DNA of 64,000 nt from Cryobacterium frigoriphilum (GTDB taxonomy: Bacteria > Actinomycetota > Actinomycetes > Actinomycetales > Microbacteriaceae): NCBI RefSeq assembly GCF_004403305.1, contig NZ_SOHE01000018.1:62001-126000 (forward strand), given 5' to 3'. A program made the translations under genes and the position numbers. This document shows positions 51,375 to 60,710 of this stretch, in pieces (within the stretch, counting starts at the first letter, position 1; every line of letters begins with the position of its first letter). Under the pieces are notes generated by a model that was not told where the DNA came from, did not search any database, and saw nothing but the letters and a program-made list of their open reading frames with translations.

Positions 51375-51443
51375 CTCACCCGCGAAAGCGGGTGAGTCGT
51401 CGGTTCGGCCGCGTTAAACCGCCGACTCACCCGCTTTCGCGGG
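51375..51443. terminator. 27-bp near-perfect inverted repeat at the helD 3' end
   Basis: Arms 51379-51405 and 51417-51443 match over 27 bp with one mismatch; the loop of 11 nt holds the helD stop codon. The right arm is the last nine codons of helD. A nested perfect hairpin CTCACCCGC-GAAA-GCGGGTGAG lies at 51375-51396. The structure could end transcription of helD although no T run follows. Confidence 0.6.
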
Positions 51444-53675
51444 CCGGGAAGCGGGCCGGGAAGCGGGCGTCTCGGCGAGGTACAGCCGCTGCGTCGAGCG
51501 GGTCATGGCGACATAGAGTGCCCCGGCACCACGTTCGGACGCGGCGAGAATCGCGGAGGGGTCGACCACGATCACGGCGTCGAACTCGAGGCCCTTCGAA
51601 TCGTGCGGCGTGAGCAGCGCGATCGGCCGGCTGAGTCCGAGCGCACCACGGCCGATCATGCTGCCGAATTCCGCGCGCAGGGTGGCGTACAGGGCATCCA
51701 ACGCCTCGTCCACCACGATCACGGCGAGGGTGCCCGCCGCGGGAAGCGCGCGGTCCGTGCGAATGGCGGCCGCGACATCCGTCACCGTTTCGACCGGCCA
51801 TTCGCTCGCCCGCACCGAGCGCGCCGGCGTGATCGGCAGGCCGTGCGCGATCGCGGTGGTCTCGGCGGCGGCGGCGATCTGGCTGGGCGTGCGGTAGTTG
51901 ACGGTGAGTTCCTCGAGGCGCCAGCGGTCGATCTCGAAGGAGCCGGCGAGAACGGGCTTGAGCGCATCCTTCCAGCTGCGCGCCGCCGCGGCCGAGGCGG
52001 CCTGGGCGATATCGCCGACGATCGTGAACGATCGGCGCGGACCGCGGCGCAGCAGCAGGCGCCACTGCATCGGCGAGAGCTCCTGGGCCTCGTCGACGAC
52101 GACATGGCCGTAGGTCCAGGTACGGTCGTGTGCGGCGCGCTCGGCGGTCGTTCCGCGATCGGTGAACTCGGTGAAGCCGTCGGCGAGGTCTTCGGCGCTG
52201 ACCAACCCCTTCACCTTCATGTTCTCAATGGCGGCTTCGGCGTTTTCCACGTCGAGCTGCCGCTGTTGGTCGGCCGCCCGCTTCTTGGCCTGGTCGACGG
52301 CGCTGTATTCGCCGAGGTGTTCGGCGGCCTCGTCGAGCAGCGGCACGTCGGCGATCGTGAATTCCGCGTCGCGGGAGCGCAGCAGCAGGGCCCGTCGCTC
52401 GGCCGTCCACGCCGGGGTCAGCTCGGCGAGCCACTGCGGCCGCGCGTACAGGTCCTGCAGCAGCTTCTCGGGGGTCAGCGGCAACCAGGCCGTGTTCAGG
52501 GCGATCCGCACATCGTTGGAGCCGCGCAGGTCTTCGCGCAGCAGCGGAATGTCATCGTCGTCGAGCGATCGGCTGCGTACCTGCAACTGGCCGAGCCAGG
52601 CCTTTGCGAGGGCATTGAGCGCGTGGTTCACGAACGCCACGCGCGCTTCGTTGTGCGGCTTGCCGCTCGACCTGGCGTGCTCGATCGCGTTGCGGATCAG
52701 CTGGGGGCTGAGCCGAAGCGGGTCGCCGTTCACCTGCAGTTCCTGGGCTTCGGCCGGCACCTTCTGGCGGCTTCGCACGGCCCGGGCGATCAGGTCGGCC
52801 ATGAACGTCTGCCCCTTGAGCGCGGCGACGGCCGGCGGGTCTTCCCGCGTGGCCTCGACGCCCGGGTAGAGCTGCCCGACCGAGGCGAGCACCACTCCGG
52901 TCTCCCCGAGCGAGGGCAGCACGGCTTCGATGTACTGCAGGAACGACCGTGACGGTCCGACGATGAGCACGCCGGAGTTCTGCAGCCGGTCACGGTGGGT
53001 ATAAAGAAGGTACGCGGCGCGGTGCAGCGCCACGGCGGTCTTGCCGGTGCCGGGCCCGCCCTGCACGACGAGCACGCCATTCAGCCCCGAGCGGATGATG
53101 CGATCCTGCTCGGCCTGGATCGTCGAGACGATGTCGGACATCTGCCCGGTGCGTTGCTGGGTGAGGGCGTTCAGCAGCGCACCCTCCCCCTGGTGCAGGC
53201 TCGCGGCGCCCTCACCATCGAGCAGGGTCGCGTCGAGTACCTCGTCGTCGATGCGGGTGACGCGGCGCCCTTCAGAGGAGAGGTGCCGCCGCGCGCGGGC
53301 GCCGAGCGGGGTCGCGGCAGTGGCCTGGTAGAAGGCGCTCGCGAGCGGCACCCGCCAGTCGAGCAGCATGGGGTGCAGGGCTTCGTCGCGCAGTCCGACC
53401 CGGCCGATATACCGGTAGACGGATGCCCCATCCGGCGTCTCCGGGGCCGTCTCCAGCCGCCCGAACGCGAGCCGATCGTCGACGTCGCGCAGCTGCACGA
53501 TGCGTTCCTGGTACAGCCGTGCAAAGGAATCCCGTTCAGTGCGGGCCTGGTGGTTGCCGCCGACGTTGAGCGATCGCACGTCGCGAAGCTGCTGCTCGGC
53601 CTCGCTCAGCAGGGCGTCCAGCCGCGAGTAAAGCGCGGTGACGTAGTCCTGCTCACGCTGAAGTTCCTGATCCAC
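51414..53675 (-). CDS. helD: HelD-type UvrD-like helicase (RNA polymerase recycling factor)
   Basis: A 753-aa superfamily 1 NTPase of the HelD/HelR kind. An N-terminal coiled-coil (LYSRLDALLSEAEQQLRDVRSL) is followed by Walker A GGPGTGKTAVALHRAAYLLY, a long central insert, Walker B VVVDEAQELSPMQWRLLLRRGP, motif III FTIVGDIAQAA, and C-terminal LLTPHDSKGLEFDAVIVVDP and ALYVAMTRSTQRLYL. Actinobacterial members remove RNA polymerase from stalled complexes, and some protect against rifampicin. GTG 53675 is chosen because GAGGGG lies 7 nt upstream; a TTG at 53711 would add 12 residues. TAAACT (53718-53723) is its likely -10 box. Confidence 0.85.
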   Translation of the reverse strand: MDQELQREQDYVTALYSRLDALLSEAEQQLRDVRSLNVGGNHQARTERDSFARLYQERIVQLRDVDDRLAFGRLETAPETPDGASVYRYIGRVGLRDEALHPMLLDWRVPLASAFYQATAATPLGARARRHLSSEGRRVTRIDDEVLDATLLDGEGAASLHQGEGALLNALTQQRTGQMSDIVSTIQAEQDRIIRSGLNGVLVVQGGPGTGKTAVALHRAAYLLYTHRDRLQNSGVLIVGPSRSFLQYIEAVLPSLGETGVVLASVGQLYPGVEATREDPPAVAALKGQTFMADLIARAVRSRQKVPAEAQELQVNGDPLRLSPQLIRNAIEHARSSGKPHNEARVAFVNHALNALAKAWLGQLQVRSRSLDDDDIPLLREDLRGSNDVRIALNTAWLPLTPEKLLQDLYARPQWLAELTPAWTAERRALLLRSRDAEFTIADVPLLDEAAEHLGEYSAVDQAKKRAADQQRQLDVENAEAAIENMKVKGLVSAEDLADGFTEFTDRGTTAERAAHDRTWTYGHVVVDEAQELSPMQWRLLLRRGPRRSFTIVGDIAQAASAAAARSWKDALKPVLAGSFEIDRWRLEELTVNYRTPSQIAAAAETTAIAHGLPITPARSVRASEWPVETVTDVAAAIRTDRALPAAGTLAVIVVDEALDALYATLRAEFGSMIGRGALGLSRPIALLTPHDSKGLEFDAVIVVDPSAILAASERGAGALYVAMTRSTQRLYLAETPASRPASRPAKAGESAV

Positions 53676-53810
53676 GTGTGTGCCCCTCAAGTGCCAACCC
53701 CTCAATTCCAAACACCTAGTTTAGATCTCTTCGCTGGGTCGACCGCGCGGGTCTACTGTGTGCAGCGACGGTGTGACGCTCAGCTATCCGCGACGGAGCA
53801 GGAGACCACG

Positions 53811-54878
53811 ATGAAGGCAATTGTGCAGGACACCTACGGGCCCCTCGACGTGCTGAAGCTGCGGGATGTGCCTAAACCGACCGCCGGTGACGGCGAGGTA
53901 CTCGTGAAGGTGCGGGCGACATCCGTTCACGCCGACGTCTGGCACGCCGTGCGCGGTGAACCCTACGCGCTGCGCTTCATGGGCTCGGGAGTGCGGCGGC
54001 CGAAGACCGCGATTCCGGGAACGGATGTTGCCGGCCTCGTCGAATCCGTCGGGCCATTCGTGACCGATTTTCGACCGGGCGACGCCGTCTACGGCGAGTG
54101 TGTCGGCGTGAACCAGTGGCACAACGGCGGGTCCTTCGCCGAATACGTCGCGGTGCCAGCCAAACGGCTGGCGCCGATGCCGACCCGGCTGAGCTTCGAA
54201 CAGGCCGCCGCGATCCCCACGTCGGCGAGCATCGCTCTCGGCTGCCTGCGTGACGAGGGCCGCATCCGGGCCGGCCAGCGGGTGCTCATCAACGGCGCCG
54301 GTGGGGCCGTCGGCACCTTCGCGGTGCAGCTCGCGCACGCCTTCGGCGCACACGTGACGGCCGTGGACAGCCCCGAAAAGCTCGACATGCTGCGGGCGAT
54401 CGGCGCGGACCGGGTCGTCGACTACACCCGGGTGGACTACACCCAGGAGGAGATCGGGGTGCACGAGCACCTCGAAAAGCCCTACGATCTGATCCTCGAC
54501 ATCGCAGGCAACCATCCGTTTTCCCGCTGCCGGCGGGTGCTCGCGCCCACCGGCACCTATGTGCTCGTGGGGCACGACCATTACGGCGCAACCGGACACA
54601 AGTGGATGGGCAGCCTCGGCCGGTTCTTCCCGCTGATGCTGCGCAGCGCCTTCGTGAAGCAACTGCCCGGGCTGCGGGGGGCGAAGGCACCGAATGACCG
54701 CTTCGCGGTCGTCACCCAGATGGTCGAAGATGGCGATCTGATGCCGGTCGTCGACCGAACGTATCCGCTCGCCGAAGCGGTCGCCGCCCTGCGCTACCTG
54801 ACCGAGGAGCAGACCCGCGGCAAGATCGTGCTCACCGTGGGCGACGCTCCCGACGAGCGGATGAGTAACGGGGATTGA
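53811..54878 (+). CDS. Zinc-free MDR alcohol dehydrogenase/quinone reductase
   Basis: A 355-aa medium-chain dehydrogenase of the quinone-reductase-like class: MKAIVQDTYGPLDVLKLRDV, VRATSVHADVWHAVRGEPYALRFM, AIPGTDVAGLVESVG, Rossmann motif VLINGAGGAVGTFAVQLAHAFGAHVTAVDS and QTRGKIVLTV near the end. AGGAG lies 6 nt before the ATG at 53811. It is divergent from helD and convergent with jetC, whose stop is only 12 bp away. The gene occupies the place where jetD would be expected. Its last codons (DERMSNGD) run into a tRNA-like sequence. Confidence 0.88.
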   Translation: MKAIVQDTYGPLDVLKLRDVPKPTAGDGEVLVKVRATSVHADVWHAVRGEPYALRFMGSGVRRPKTAIPGTDVAGLVESVGPFVTDFRPGDAVYGECVGVNQWHNGGSFAEYVAVPAKRLAPMPTRLSFEQAAAIPTSASIALGCLRDEGRIRAGQRVLINGAGGAVGTFAVQLAHAFGAHVTAVDSPEKLDMLRAIGADRVVDYTRVDYTQEEIGVHEHLEKPYDLILDIAGNHPFSRCRRVLAPTGTYVLVGHDHYGATGHKWMGSLGRFFPLMLRSAFVKQLPGLRGAKAPNDRFAVVTQMVEDGDLMPVVDRTYPLAEAVAALRYLTEEQTRGKIVLTVGDAPDERMSNGD

Positions 54879-54896
54879 ACTCGCGACCTCCTAGGC
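54866..54896 (-). other. tRNA-like 3' fragment at the jetC/oxidoreductase junction
   Basis: Read on the minus strand, GGAGGTCGCGAGTTCAATCC followed by CCGTT resembles the variable loop and T arm of a tRNA (TTCAATC loop). No acceptor, D or anticodon arm can be found, and one T-stem pair is mismatched, so this is at most a remnant, of the sort left by integration or deletion at a tRNA gene. Confidence 0.35.
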
Positions 54897-57800
54897 GGGC
54901 ACCGGGGTCGACAGGGACGTCGAAACAAGCGGCGTGATGTAGGAATACCCGGTGGTGTTGTTCTTGGTCATCGACAGCACGAGATCCATGTGCGGCTCGA
55001 GCGCGGTGACCTTGTCGAGCGGGGCACCGACGATGAGCTGAAAACCGAGTCCCTTCCACGCCGCGACGGCTCGACCGGCGAACTCGGCGTCGGACTTGAC
55101 GAAACCCTCGTCGAGGAACACCGGCGCGAATCGGGGTCGGGTGCGGCTCTCGTCGCCGAGCTGAAATCGCAACGCAGCCCCCACGACGAACGCCACGAGC
55201 TCCTGCGACTCGCCACCGCTCTTGCCTCCGAGCGATGAGTAGGTGCTGACCTCGACCCCCTCGGGAGTCAGGCGCACGGCCGTGATCTCCACGTGCTTGC
55301 GCACGTCGAGCAGAAGCTCGCGCTGGCCGTCGCCGCGGCCGCCACCGCCCTCACCGCCGCCGTCGGGCTTGCGAATGAGCGCCATGAACGCCCGCAGCCG
55401 GGTGAAGCGGTTCTCGGTCTGCTCGTCGGTGAAGAGTTCGGTCGCGCCCGACGACAGCAGCGTGAGTTCGCGTCGAAATGCGGTCGCATCGTCGCGGTGC
55501 AGCCGTCGCAGGCTGATCTTCAACCGGTCACGGCCCGCACCAAACGGCAGCGTCGTGAGGATCTCGTTGATGGGCCGCAGCCGGTCTTCGATCTCTTCGA
55601 TCGCGGTCGTGAACGCGCCGGCCAACGGCACGAGGTCTTGGCCGCTCCACGCCGCGAGGCGGCGCTTCCACTCCTGGCGCCGCTCGTGCAGACCGAGCGT
55701 GTACACGGCGTCGAGAATGTCGTTGTAGCTCGTGAACGACTCCATCGACACCCCGATGTTCGGGTCGGGCCAGCGACTCTGAAACGTCTCGAAAATGCGC
55801 AACAGCGAGTCGCGGGCGCTTGCGGCGGCGCCACGGTCCTGTGCGGACTGCTCCGTCAGGCGCTCCCGCAGGCGTTTCACGCCTCCCGCGAAGGCTGCGA
55901 GGTCGTGCTGGTCGCCGACGAGGGCGAACTGGGCGTCCAGGTGCGCGGCGTTGTCGGCGGTCAAGACCACGGAGTCGCCCCGCTCGATGCGGTCGAGCCC
56001 GTCGGTGACCACGTCCTGGTCATCGACGATGTGGCCCTGTTCGGCGCCGAGCCGCACGGCGTGCTGGTCGGTGGAGTGCTTGAGCTTCTGGGCGGCCTCG
56101 AGTTCGCCGGCGAGGCGTGCCTCCTCCTCTTTCAGGGCGCGCAGCACGTCGCTGCCGGCCAGCACCCGTTCCTGCTCGGCCTGCTTGTCGGCGATTTTCG
56201 ACTCGGCGGCGGGCACGTCGATACCGAGCCACGCGGCATCCGCGACGAATTGGTGGGCGGCCTTGCGGGCGCGCAGATCCGCGATGCGCTCGCCGAGAGC
56301 GGATGCCTCCTTCGCCACGGCGTTCGCCGTCGCCGTGCACTCGGCGAGTTCCGTGGTGATGTCGTCGAGACGGGCGCGACTGGAGAAGCCGATGATGGAC
56401 TTCTGGTCCTGATTCCAGCCGTGGGCGCCGCGGGAGCCGTTGCGGGTCTGCCCGCTCGGCGTGACGCGGGGGCCGTCGCCGACCAGTTCGGCCGGCGTGG
56501 CCACGCAGAGCGCGTCCAGGTTCGTTGCCTGCACCCGCTCGCGGGCCCAGCCGCTGAAGGGCGAGTCGACGAAGGTGAGCTTGCCCGAGACATAGCGGGC
56601 GTCGCCGGCTACCGGTTCGAAAGCACGCAACGGCACACCCTCGAAGTGGATTCGCACCGGGATGCGCAAGGGGTCGATGGCCTGGCTGAGGGCGGCGAGT
56701 TTCGTCTCGTCGACGAGCATGACCCGCACGACGGATGCGAGGGTGACCTCGGCCGCCTGGCGCCACTGCTCCTCGTCGGCGGCGAGGTCGATGAGTTCGG
56801 CCACGAAGGGCAGGTCCTCGGCCGGGATGCCGGCGGCCTCTGCGATCATCAGCCGCGCGTTGTGCAGGTGCTGCGGCACCAGGCTCGCCCGGCCGGCGAG
56901 GTAGCCGTGCTCCTGCTTGAGGGCGCGAATCTGTTCCTCGACGGGATAGGAGGTGCGCTGCAGGGTTGCGCGGTCGGCGTCGAGGGCATCCGCTGCCGGC
57001 GTGAAGGTGCCGAGAAAGTCGGCCGCGACGGTCTGCGCGGCCAGAAACTCGGGCTGAGAGTGGATCGGCGTCTCGAGCACGGCCACCCGGGCGTCGAAGG
57101 TGGCACGCTCGGCGGCAACGTCATCACGCTGGTTGCCCAGCTGCTCGAGATCGTTCGCGAGGCTCGCGAGCACGTCGCCGCCATTGTCGCGCTGTTGGGC
57201 CTGAACCGCGGCGACTCGGGCCTTCAGCTCGGTCTCGGCGTCGCGGGCGCGGGCCAGTTCGACGAGGTTGCCGCGACGTTCGGCGCCGTTCAGATCGGCC
57301 GCGCCGTCAAGCAGGGCGCGCTCGGTCAGCAGCCGCCAGAGCACGAAGGGAGTATCGCCGGCGCGGTGCACCCCGAAGGTATCGATCAGCTCGGCCTTCT
57401 CGCTCGCTGCCTCATAGTCGCGGTGCAGGGCGGGGATGCGTTCGAGCACCTGGGCCTTCTGCGCTTCGGTGACCATGGCCCGGTACGACCGTTCGAGGTC
57501 TTCGAAGTGCGCGACGGCCTTGTCGGCGGCGGCGTAGGTCGCCGGTTCTTCGAGCACCATCGATTTGTAGAGGCCGTCGACGGTCTTGACCTGCTGTCCG
57601 GCCTGGATGCGGGCGAGCAGGCGCAGGGCCTTGCCGCCCTCGCCGTTCGCCCCGATGCCGAGCCGCGTGTACAGCGTCTGGGCGAATGCGGCGTAGGTGT
57701 CGAAGATGTCGAGCTCGGGAAAACGGTTCTTGAGTGCCCGTTTGTCGAAGCGGCTTTCGGTGACCTCGGCGAGGTCACGCAGGTCGAGGCGACCGTCGAT

Positions 57801-58292
57801 CGTCGCCATTTTCATTGACAGGTCAGCGAATTTGCTCGCCCCGCGCGGCACGAAGTAGGCCCGCAGCACCGTGAAGCGGCGGTTGTTGTCGTCGATGAAC
57901 GTCATCGCCACGGCGCCCCAGGTGGCTTCCTGAGAACCGCGCAAGACCTGATCCTGCAACGCGCCCGTGCCCGCCTCGCGGCTGGAGTCGGTCTTTCCGC
58001 GCAGGTAGGTCATCAGGTTGCGCTGGTCGACACTGCGCGCCCGGCCGGAGCCGGCATCATTGCTCGCACCGTTGAAGGGGGTATCGGAGGGCATCATGAG
58101 GGCGAGGTAGGCGTCGAGCAGGCTGCTCTTGCCGGTACCGGAGGCCCCGGAGACGAGCGTCGCGGTCGGCGCAAAGGCAATCTCGTGGTGGCCCTGGAAG
58201 CCGCCCCAGTTGACCATCTGGAAGGACTCGGCCTTCCACTGGGTGGTGCCCTCGGTCGAGCCGTCGATGTAGAAAAGGGGGGAATCAGTCAT
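54891..58292 (-). CDS. jetC: Condensin-like ATPase JetC (MukB/SbcC-like)
   Basis: A 1133-aa SMC-like ATPase. The N-terminal head has [14 protein letters not shown] and Walker [10 protein letters not shown] (49-57); long coiled-coil arms with a hinge region span roughly 280-800; the C-terminal head has the signature [11 protein letters not shown] (from 1021) and Walker [11 protein letters not shown] (Asp1061-Glu1062). Length, order and neighbours match the Wadjet/MksB-type motor JetC, which extrudes DNA loops. It overlaps jetB by 8 bp. No jetD nuclease gene follows: the next gene is a convergent oxidoreductase 12 bp away. Confidence 0.88.
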
Positions 58293-59022
58293 TCGCGGGG
58301 CTCCAGATGGCGGGCAGGGCTAAGTTGTCGGCGAGGTCTGGCGCTGGGCTCGCTGGGGCCCCGTTCTGGCTGACCAGCCAGTCGAGTAGTTCGCCGAGCC
58401 GTTGGACCGGCAGCAGCACCTCTATCACCGCCGACACTCGAAACCGGTCGGCGTCGCTCGTCTTGAGCAGCACCCGCGCCTTGGCGAGGCTGTCGACGGC
58501 AGCCGCGGCCCGGCGGGCATCACCGGAACGGTCGGTCGCGTGTTCCGGGCGAAAGTGCGCAACGTTGTCCACGAGATTGTCGCGGTCGACGAGCACGATC
58601 TCCTGACCGCTTGCCCGCTCGCTGCGAAACCGCTGGCGCAGCAGCACGAGCAGAATCGTCTCTTCGCGAGTGTACGCCACATCGTGCAGCAGGGTCGGAA
58701 AGCGGTCGCCGCCCTCGGCGACGGCCTGGCGTTTGAACGCGACCTCGTAGTGCAGGTCGACGTGCAGGTCGAGAAAGACGTCGTTCAGGCGCGAGCGCAG
58801 CAGGCTCTGCGAGGCCAGCAGGGTCTGCCATTCCGCGGGCTGCAGCGCGGCCGAGATGTAGCGGTGCTTGAGCAGCAGCACGAGGGTGCGGCGTTGTTCG
58901 ATGCTGAGCCCGCCTTCGTCGCCCTCGAACAGCGAGAAGCTGGCCGGGTCGCGCTCGACGCTTGTATCGTCTCCGGTAGCGTCCGTGCGGTCGTCCGTCT
59001 CGTTGTCAGTCATGCCGCTCAC
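58285..59022 (-). CDS. jetB: Wadjet kite-like subunit JetB (DUF4194)
   Basis: A 245-aa protein matching the DUF4194/MksE-type winged-helix kite subunit: [87 protein letters not shown] and [27 protein letters not shown]. It should bridge JetA and the JetC heads. A GTG at 59022 overlaps the jetA stop (GTGA); ATG at 59013 is an alternative start. It overlaps jetC by 8 bp. Confidence 0.85.
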
Positions 59023-60557
59023 TCATTCTCGTCTGAAGTCTGGTTTGGTTCGGTCGGGCCGTACGGCAGGGCGGCCAGGGCTGCGGTCTCGGCATCCGTC
59101 AGCATGATGCGCGGCACGGTGAAGCTGCGCACGCTGCCGTCGGGCCGCACGGTCTCGAAGCTTTCCACGGCCTCGGCCCGGTGCACGGCGTCGACCTGCG
59201 TCGCGATCTGCAGCATGCCCAGAATCTCGACCGGGCGCCGCAGCGTCACCGCGAGCGCGTTGAACGCCGCTCCGACGGATGCCGCATCCCCCGTGCTGAA
59301 GGCCGTCACGATCGCGTCGCGCATCTCCTCGAGCAGCGGACCGCCCTGCTGGCGCATCGCGTCGAGGCTCGGCGGTTCGGGTGCGTCACCCATCACGTCG
59401 TCGAGCTCCGGCGGCGCGAGATGGGCGGCGGGATCGTAGAACCGTTCCTGCAGGTGCTCCACCTCCAGGGTGCCCGGCATGAGTTCCGCCGTGACGGTGG
59501 CGCGCGGGCCGGCCGTCTGCATCCAGACGGCGAGTTCCTTGTTGATGCCCTGCAGCATCCGCTCGAGTTCGCGGTCCTTCACGACGTCGTGGTTCACAAT
59601 GTGCTCGCGCAGGGTCGTGCTGAGGCCGTTGCGCTGGGTAAGCACGTCGTCGATACCCTTGCGGATCAGGCCGACGGTGCCCATGAAGCCGCGGCGGTCG
59701 GTCGCGGACAGTTCGAGCGCGAAGGGGTGCAGCAGGATCGTCTCGAGGTCGTTCTTGAGCGCGAGCATGAGCGTGTCGTTGCGCAGCAGGGCGAAGGCGC
59801 CCTCGAAGGCACGGCCCTCTTTGGTGGAGGTCATCAGGGCATCCGTCTTGGCGAGGTAGTCGTCGAGCACCTCGCTGATCGGGCGTTCCTCACCGCGGAA
59901 GTCGTTGATGATCTGCCGGTGCATGCCGGCGACGGACTCTTCGACCCGTTTGAAGTCGCTCGGCAGCTGATTGATCAGGTCGATGAGGTTGGCGTAGCCC
60001 TCGAGCATCTGCTCGTTGGAGGCGCTCGCGACGTCGCCGCCGGCATCCAGACGATCACGTTCGCTCTGCTTCTCGGCGATCTCCTGGTCCAGGCGACGGA
60101 TGCGTTCCTGCCGATCCGGGTTCGCCTGCGTCGCACGGTGCCTGGCCGTGTCGACGATCGTCGTGAGGCGGGACTCGCTGATCAGCGCGCGGTCGCGGGC
60201 GAGGCCGTCGACGAGCAGCAGCGCCTCGAGGGCGTGGGAGGTGAGGGAGTAGAACTCCTCTCCGTTGTCCGAGCTGTTGTCCCCCATTTCGCGGTACAGC
60301 CACAGGTCGTTCATCCATTGCACGCACAGTGCGCGGCCGTTCTTGCCTGGCACCTCGCTGCCGACGCTGCGGAGGTCGGCGAGGTAGGCATCCACCTGGG
60401 TGTGCAGCAGATCGGCCTGCACGCTGCGGCGGTCCCGGCTGAAAGAACTCTTGAAGACGGCGAGCACGAACGGAGCCCATTTGCGGTCCAGCAGGCGCAG
60501 GGTGGGTTTGTCGAAGGCCTCGCGCACCCGCGCCAATTCGGCCGCAATCTCACTCAC
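59019..60557 (-). CDS. jetA: Wadjet kleisin-like subunit JetA (DUF3375)
   Basis: A 512-aa DUF3375 protein (MksF/MukF-like kleisin role): [128 protein letters not shown], then a C-terminal winged-helix region. GTG at 60557 is chosen because AAAGGA lies 8 nt upstream; a longer frame to 60641 lacks support. It is first gene of jetABC; a possible -10 box TAAAGT lies in the leader. With JetB and JetC it forms the loop-extruding complex of Wadjet. Confidence 0.87.
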
Positions 60558-60710
60558 GTTGTTGTTCCTTTCCCGCCCCGGGTTCAACTTTAACCGAAAC
60601 GATTGTTGAGCGAACACCCGACGCGGGGCGTGAGCCGGCACGAGTCGGCCGGTGTGCGTCGTGTGTGAGACTGTCAGAACGACTTTTCTGGATTTTCTGG
60701 AGGCCCCACG

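Follow-up and report, generated by a model that had tools for sequence, protein, structure and literature searches.

What does a Wadjet-type motor do when the gene for its nuclease is missing? The question is raised by the jetA, jetB and jetC genes of Cryobacterium frigoriphilum, which lie in a 64,000-nt stretch of contig NZ_SOHE01000018.1, positions 62001–126000 (the window). In the current view, as summarised in two papers, Wadjet reels in an entire plasmid, which JetD cuts when the motors meet (PMC10586767, PMC7083940). A sequence-only reading of this DNA had offered three options for a jetABC without jetD: loss of the nuclease, a nuclease encoded elsewhere, or a chromosome organiser. Of these, the chromosome organiser appears to fit best. 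On balance it is probable that this JetABC is a nuclease-free accessory condensin resembling MksBEF, working beside Smc-ScpAB and descended from a jetABCD ancestor.

The genes were called by codon bias, so that exact starts are approximate, and are as follows:

jetA, 59019..60557, minus strand: kleisin-like subunit (DUF3375), GTG start at 60557; PF11855 336.7 bits, PADLOC JetA1 593.5 bits

jetB, 58285..59022, minus strand: KITE-like subunit (DUF4194), GTG start; PF13835 116.7 bits, PADLOC JetB1 361.8 bits

jetC, 54891..58292, minus strand: MukB-like structural maintenance of chromosomes (SMC) ATPase of 1133 aa, ATG start; PADLOC JetC1 PDLC00517 1350.7 bits

The jetA stop (59019) overlaps the jetB GTG (59022) by 4 nt, and the jetB stop (58285) overlaps the jetC ATG (58292) by 8 nt. 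The jetA GTG resembles the start in a relative (L204), the longest open reading frame beginning at 60641, and jetB has an alternative ATG start at 59013, as in many relatives. The PF11855 match spans the whole model, the PDLC00517 match covers JetC residues 5–1125, and the JetC ATPase motifs are intact (Walker A, signature SLGGKSGGE, Walker B PVFLDEGF). The only solved structures matching within the E-value limits were JetA, JetB and JetC chains, with JetC matching 8dk2_C at E=1.8e-38 and JetB matching weakly (E = 0.00095); no NCBIfam family scored above its cut-off. The base composition of jetABC is inside the range of the surrounding DNA. Pfam, PADLOC and the motifs thus agree with the sequence-only reading of three overlapping genes, and the products are confirmed as intact homologues of type I Wadjet JetA, JetB and JetC. 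The operon shares with Wadjet type I (JetABCD; MksBEFG/EptABCD) full-length homology of the three subunits, gene order and overlapping starts. It differs in having neither JetD (a Toprim nuclease) nor a relic of it, and in being present across the genus rather than patchy.

A jetABC without jetD is near-core to Cryobacterium. Orthologs were matched in 53 of 57 genomes, the nearest JetC being that of C. melibiosiphilum (92% identity to the window JetC). All 53 loci were read; one (L168) stops 204 nt past jetC, and at the other 52, where the DNA downstream can be read, jetC is not followed by jetD. To look for JetD relics beside jetD-less jetABC, 19 JetD sequences, of which two were duplicates and several were partial, served as tblastn queries against the DNA upstream of jetA and as much as 5 kb beyond the end of jetC. 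None was found at 85 distinct loci (87 rows including two duplicates), the best E of 0.067 being judged chance, and the presence of relics was rejected.

The genes have been kept under selection, which is purifying for jetD-less jetABC. Pairwise Nei-Gojobori ratios of nonsynonymous to synonymous substitution (dN/dS) were calculated for 26 chosen pairs, 21 jetD-less, 4 jetD-bearing and one mixed (L097/L098, left out). In the jetD-less pairs they were 0.03–0.17 for jetC and 0.02–0.21 for jetA, and reached 0.47 for jetB, reflecting weaker constraint; in the jetD-bearing pairs jetC gave 0.12–0.27. All jetD-less JetC sequences in the alignment keep the ATPase motifs, bar one or two that are truncated there. 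Across 20 of the 57 Cryobacterium genomes, JetABC distances also correlated with those of a 1251-nt rpoB piece (Mantel r = 0.62, or 0.72 without one outlier, p = 0.0001). That the operon is a decaying Wadjet remnant would be in keeping with a jetC split in 3 of the 53 Cryobacterium loci, with a broken-up locus in another family (L248) and with a jetC in two pieces (L242). The selection data contradict it, as do the ATPase motifs and the retention of jetABC across the genus; we rejected decay on the low dN/dS and intact motifs, and consider it hardly credible.

Could the complex instead work as Wadjet by means of a nuclease, JetD or another, whose gene lies elsewhere? The assembly (4.38 Mb, 93 contigs, with the window on contig C61) has two DUF3375 and two DUF4194 matches and one match to JetD_C (PF09983), which lies not in the window but on contig C69. 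This full-length JetD speaks in favour of a nuclease acting in trans. However, it is part of a second, complete jetABCD operon that includes a separate jetC, and therefore has its own partners: it clusters in the tree with JetDs from relatives of its own operon. The two JetCs share 28% identity, and the 234-aa C-terminal reading frame of the C69 JetC (L001) scored best with PADLOC PDLC00518, that of the window with PDLC00517. The whole-genome search for JetD proposed in the sequence-only reading thus found one, in an operon of its own.

Of the 57 genomes of the genus, 23 gave a JetD_C match, which was partial or broken in G265, G266, G268 and G282. The jetABC ortholog is present in 21 of the 23, and 32 of the 53 carriers have no JetD_C match at all, although unrelated nucleases lie outside this search. 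A profile built from 7 JetDs of related systems gave a close match (569 bits) in only one of the 57 genomes, G269, where the JetD sits after a second JetC 48–49% identical to the window JetC; the other strong matches were JetDs already known from PF09983. For most carriers, a nuclease encoded elsewhere, as the sequence-only reading had allowed, is not supported, since 32 of 53 lack JetD_C and the C69 JetD goes by position and tree with the second jetABCD. JetD in trans was rejected as a general answer for these carriers, and we regard a trans-acting nuclease as decidedly improbable.

The jetD-less state was the commoner one in wider samples also. Among 249 genomes of the family, 56 gave a JetC match and 27 a JetD_C match; when paired by coordinates, jetD lay downstream at 24 of 60 JetC loci and was absent from 36. 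Split JetC matches were merged in this count, which leaves out two small JetC matches (a second place in G063, and G082) as well as the partial JetD matches of G129 and G212. In 394 genomes of the class, JetD_C was found within 12 kb downstream at 28 of 67 full-length JetA loci and at none of the other 39, of which 36 lie outside Cryobacterium; 31 of these 39 are in genomes with no strong JetD_C match. Left out of this count were split or partial JetA matches (in G360, G372, G628, G566, G506, G375, G406 and G393, and at a second place each in G078 and G582), together with JetD matches below 100 bits. A six-frame JetD profile search found no JetD at the 35 jetD-less class loci read, 34 of them judgeable (the contig of L235 breaks off within jetC or immediately behind it), and recovered JetD in both jetD-bearing controls. 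The 36th locus outside Cryobacterium (G164) was read separately; of the 28 class loci with jetD, two were read as these controls, and the jetD-bearing loci of the window's family were read as well.

Whether the complex replaces Smc-ScpAB was judged from ScpA alone. The window genome has ScpA. Of the 249 family genomes, 240 gave a ScpA match; each of the 56 with a JetC match is among them, and none of the 9 without ScpA has a JetC match. Since ScpA is never missing where JetC is found, Smc-ScpAB coexists with the complex by this ScpA-only search, and replacement was rejected.

The history of jetD was followed in FastTree trees, with duplicate loci L154, L155, L157 and L159 dropped. All but one of the 53 Cryobacterium loci group in a single clade of the JetABC tree (52 loci, support 0.85), and this clade adjoins two jetD-bearing Glaciihabitans genomes and a metagenome-assembled genome (L156; joint-clade support 0.81). 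No jetD was seen on the short L156 contig, which stops 537 nt past jetC. The Glaciihabitans JetCs are 71–74% identical to the window JetC, and jetD-bearing Streptosporangium, the second system of G269 and G200 branch near the Cryobacterium clade. The comparison with relatives therefore came out as jetD absent from the Cryobacterium orthologs and present in the adjoining Glaciihabitans. The remaining Cryobacterium jetABC, that of G270 (L188), groups with genus g64 and has a split jetC, which suggests horizontal replacement.

The JetD and JetC trees agree in their main splits and differ in some positions (for example G200 and G269), and their distances are correlated (r = 0.89, p = 0.0003, n = 10; without the most distant one, 0.82, p = 0.0021). 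The two Glaciihabitans loci L064 and L068 have 46% amino-acid identity in JetD vs 73% in JetC, JetD diverging much faster. Because jetD-bearing Glaciihabitans adjoins Cryobacterium and the two proteins' distances are correlated, the trees favour shared inheritance of JetD and JetC with repeated loss, rather than repeated recruitment. Most likely the Cryobacterium lineage came from a jetABCD operon and lost jetD before the sampled species diverged, and this loss is most likely one of several in Actinomycetes. The loss of the nuclease put forward from the letters is thus supported for the lineage (0 of 52 Cryobacterium loci vs two adjoining Glaciihabitans with jetD), but a recent local loss is not. 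With regain of jetD disallowed, 11 losses are required on this JetABC tree and 22 on a 94-tip class tree; at equal cost the JetABC tree needs 9 changes, and the class tree 10 with jetD at the root or 11 without.

How might such a complex work? JetC (the MukB-like ATPase), JetA (the kleisin) and JetB (the KITE protein) would form a nuclease-free SMC complex. This would assemble as a Wadjet-type double motor, load on DNA and extrude loops with ATP, and without JetD it could not cut the DNA reeled in. Its probable place of action is the chromosome, alongside Smc-ScpAB, in the manner of Pseudomonas aeruginosa MksBEF. We infer loop extrusion, the chromosomal role and the direction of the jetD change, the first two from knowledge of the family. 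An intact motor with no cutter, present in 53 of 57 genomes beside Smc-ScpAB, seems best explained as an accessory condensin; that the three subunits are kept together, with starts overlapping or nearly abutting, also counts for this. According to PMC10586767 and PMC7083940, P. aeruginosa MksBEF, which has no nuclease, contributes to chromosome organisation. Like the window operon it combines a MukB-like SMC protein, a kleisin and a KITE protein without MksG, beside Smc-ScpAB (same sources). The window families are, however, those of type I Wadjet subunits, so that the two are likened by subunit make-up and not by sequence.

The N-terminus of JetB bears on a further possibility, namely that JetABC controls plasmids or other foreign DNA without a nuclease, finding small circular DNA as Wadjet does and compacting or silencing it uncut, as has been proposed for Smc5/6 and viral circles. 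According to a review, JetB carries near its N-terminal end an IFDR motif that JetD contacts (PMC10586767). The window JetB has LFEGDEGGL there, and an LFEGD-like motif was present at 76 of 84 scored jetD-less loci and at 14 of 16 jetD-bearing ones. The eight jetD-less misses comprise calls without the N-terminus (L087, L095), a near match (L091) and loci without the motif (L099–L103), the two jetD-bearing misses a near match (L107) and a short call (L109). At class level the pattern is missing in several families, as in L218–L226, which have RFDGD instead. No LFEGD-like motif occurs in the part of the solved JetB chain 8dk1_E that aligns, and a further search gave an alignment only beyond the motif. 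Loss of a JetB docking motif alongside jetD was rejected, the motif being mostly kept. Its identity with IFDR is only a candidate one, and it may mark another partner.

Retention of this motif would suit a nuclease in trans, and also plasmid control. The latter gains further from the closeness in sequence of the window JetABC to Wadjet JetABC, and from the compaction of circular DNA by Smc5/6, which a review describes as a possible restriction route (PMC10586767). It fits poorly with the presence of jetABC in 53 of 57 Cryobacterium genomes, unlike the patchy JetD (23 of 57), and with a jetABC carried by a plasmid: a 220-kb circular Mycolicibacterium fortuitum plasmid (L276, CP089609.1) has jetABC, with jetA annotated as two pieces, and its annotation places no jetD next to it. 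Two linear actinobacterial plasmids carry jetABC together with jetD. We consider plasmid control without cutting unlikely.

Several observations weigh against an accessory condensin. The ortholog is missing from four Cryobacterium genomes (G289, G298, G296, G299), the split jetC genes noted above (possibly sequencing errors) are present in three, and jetABC has no single conserved chromosomal neighbourhood across the genus. The operon can also move: in genus g49, a 6-kb jetABC block has 91.7% DNA identity between L097 and L098 in different flanks, with jetD in only one. The JetB motif kept without JetD is unexplained if it docks JetD. Equal-cost parsimony does not fix the direction of the jetD change, and the wider tree leans to the jetD-less state owing to thin sampling of jetD-bearing loci outside the family, as the 94-tip tree added two jetD-bearing vs 33 jetD-less loci from there. 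Lastly, Corynebacterium glutamicum MksBEFG is likewise an actinobacterial JetABC-type complex alongside Smc-ScpAB. It differs in having the nuclease MksG, and it acts on plasmids and does not fold the chromosome (PMC7083940).

Two genes lie near jetC:

zinc-type dehydrogenase, 53811..54878, plus strand: convergent, at the expected jetD position; PF00107/PF08240

UvrD-family helicase, 51414–53711, minus strand: two genes from jetC; UvrD domains by Pfam

The PF09983 search and the gene limits agree with the earlier description of a convergent dehydrogenase 12 bp beyond jetC and no JetD in the window; the 12 bp separate the jetC stop (54891) from the dehydrogenase end (54878). The dehydrogenase is probably a neighbour outside the system, and a homologue of at least 50% identity is near only 1 of 52 other Cryobacterium jetABC loci. 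The helicase we take to be HelD-like; counting the window, 20 of the 53 Cryobacterium jetABC loci have a homologue of it nearby. In 24 of the 53, jetABC is flanked by a protein of about 180 aa with no Pfam match (for example L211:11557-12096 and L214:5095-5631), 12 times upstream of jetA and 12 times downstream of jetC and in every case on the same strand. This protein is not beside the window jetABC.

JetD-less JetABC as core genes of Actinomycetes was not described in open-access titles and abstract openings, which covered few primary Wadjet papers; this silence is weak evidence of novelty. DUF3375, DUF4194 and AAA_29 do appear in a domain table comparing rapid- with slow-growing mycobacteria, in PMC10551460. 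In a review, an origin of MukBEF, and likely of MksBEF, from an immune Wadjet complex is called a tempting speculation (PMC10586767).

The finding suggests that in bacteria a plasmid-cutting immune device can become one that handles chromosomes, or that the change can go the other way. As a more tentative proposal, which may well not hold, the SMC core in Actinomycetes would have switched many times between plasmid-cutting immunity and nuclease-free housekeeping, through loss or gain of a single gene. Glaciihabitans and Cryobacterium, and the g49 pair L097/L098, are natural matched pairs for the role of JetABC without JetD. If JetA, JetB and JetC matches were by themselves counted as Wadjet, plasmid cutting in Actinomycetes would be overestimated, because 39 of the 67 full-length JetA loci of the class sample lack JetD_C in the 12 kb downstream.

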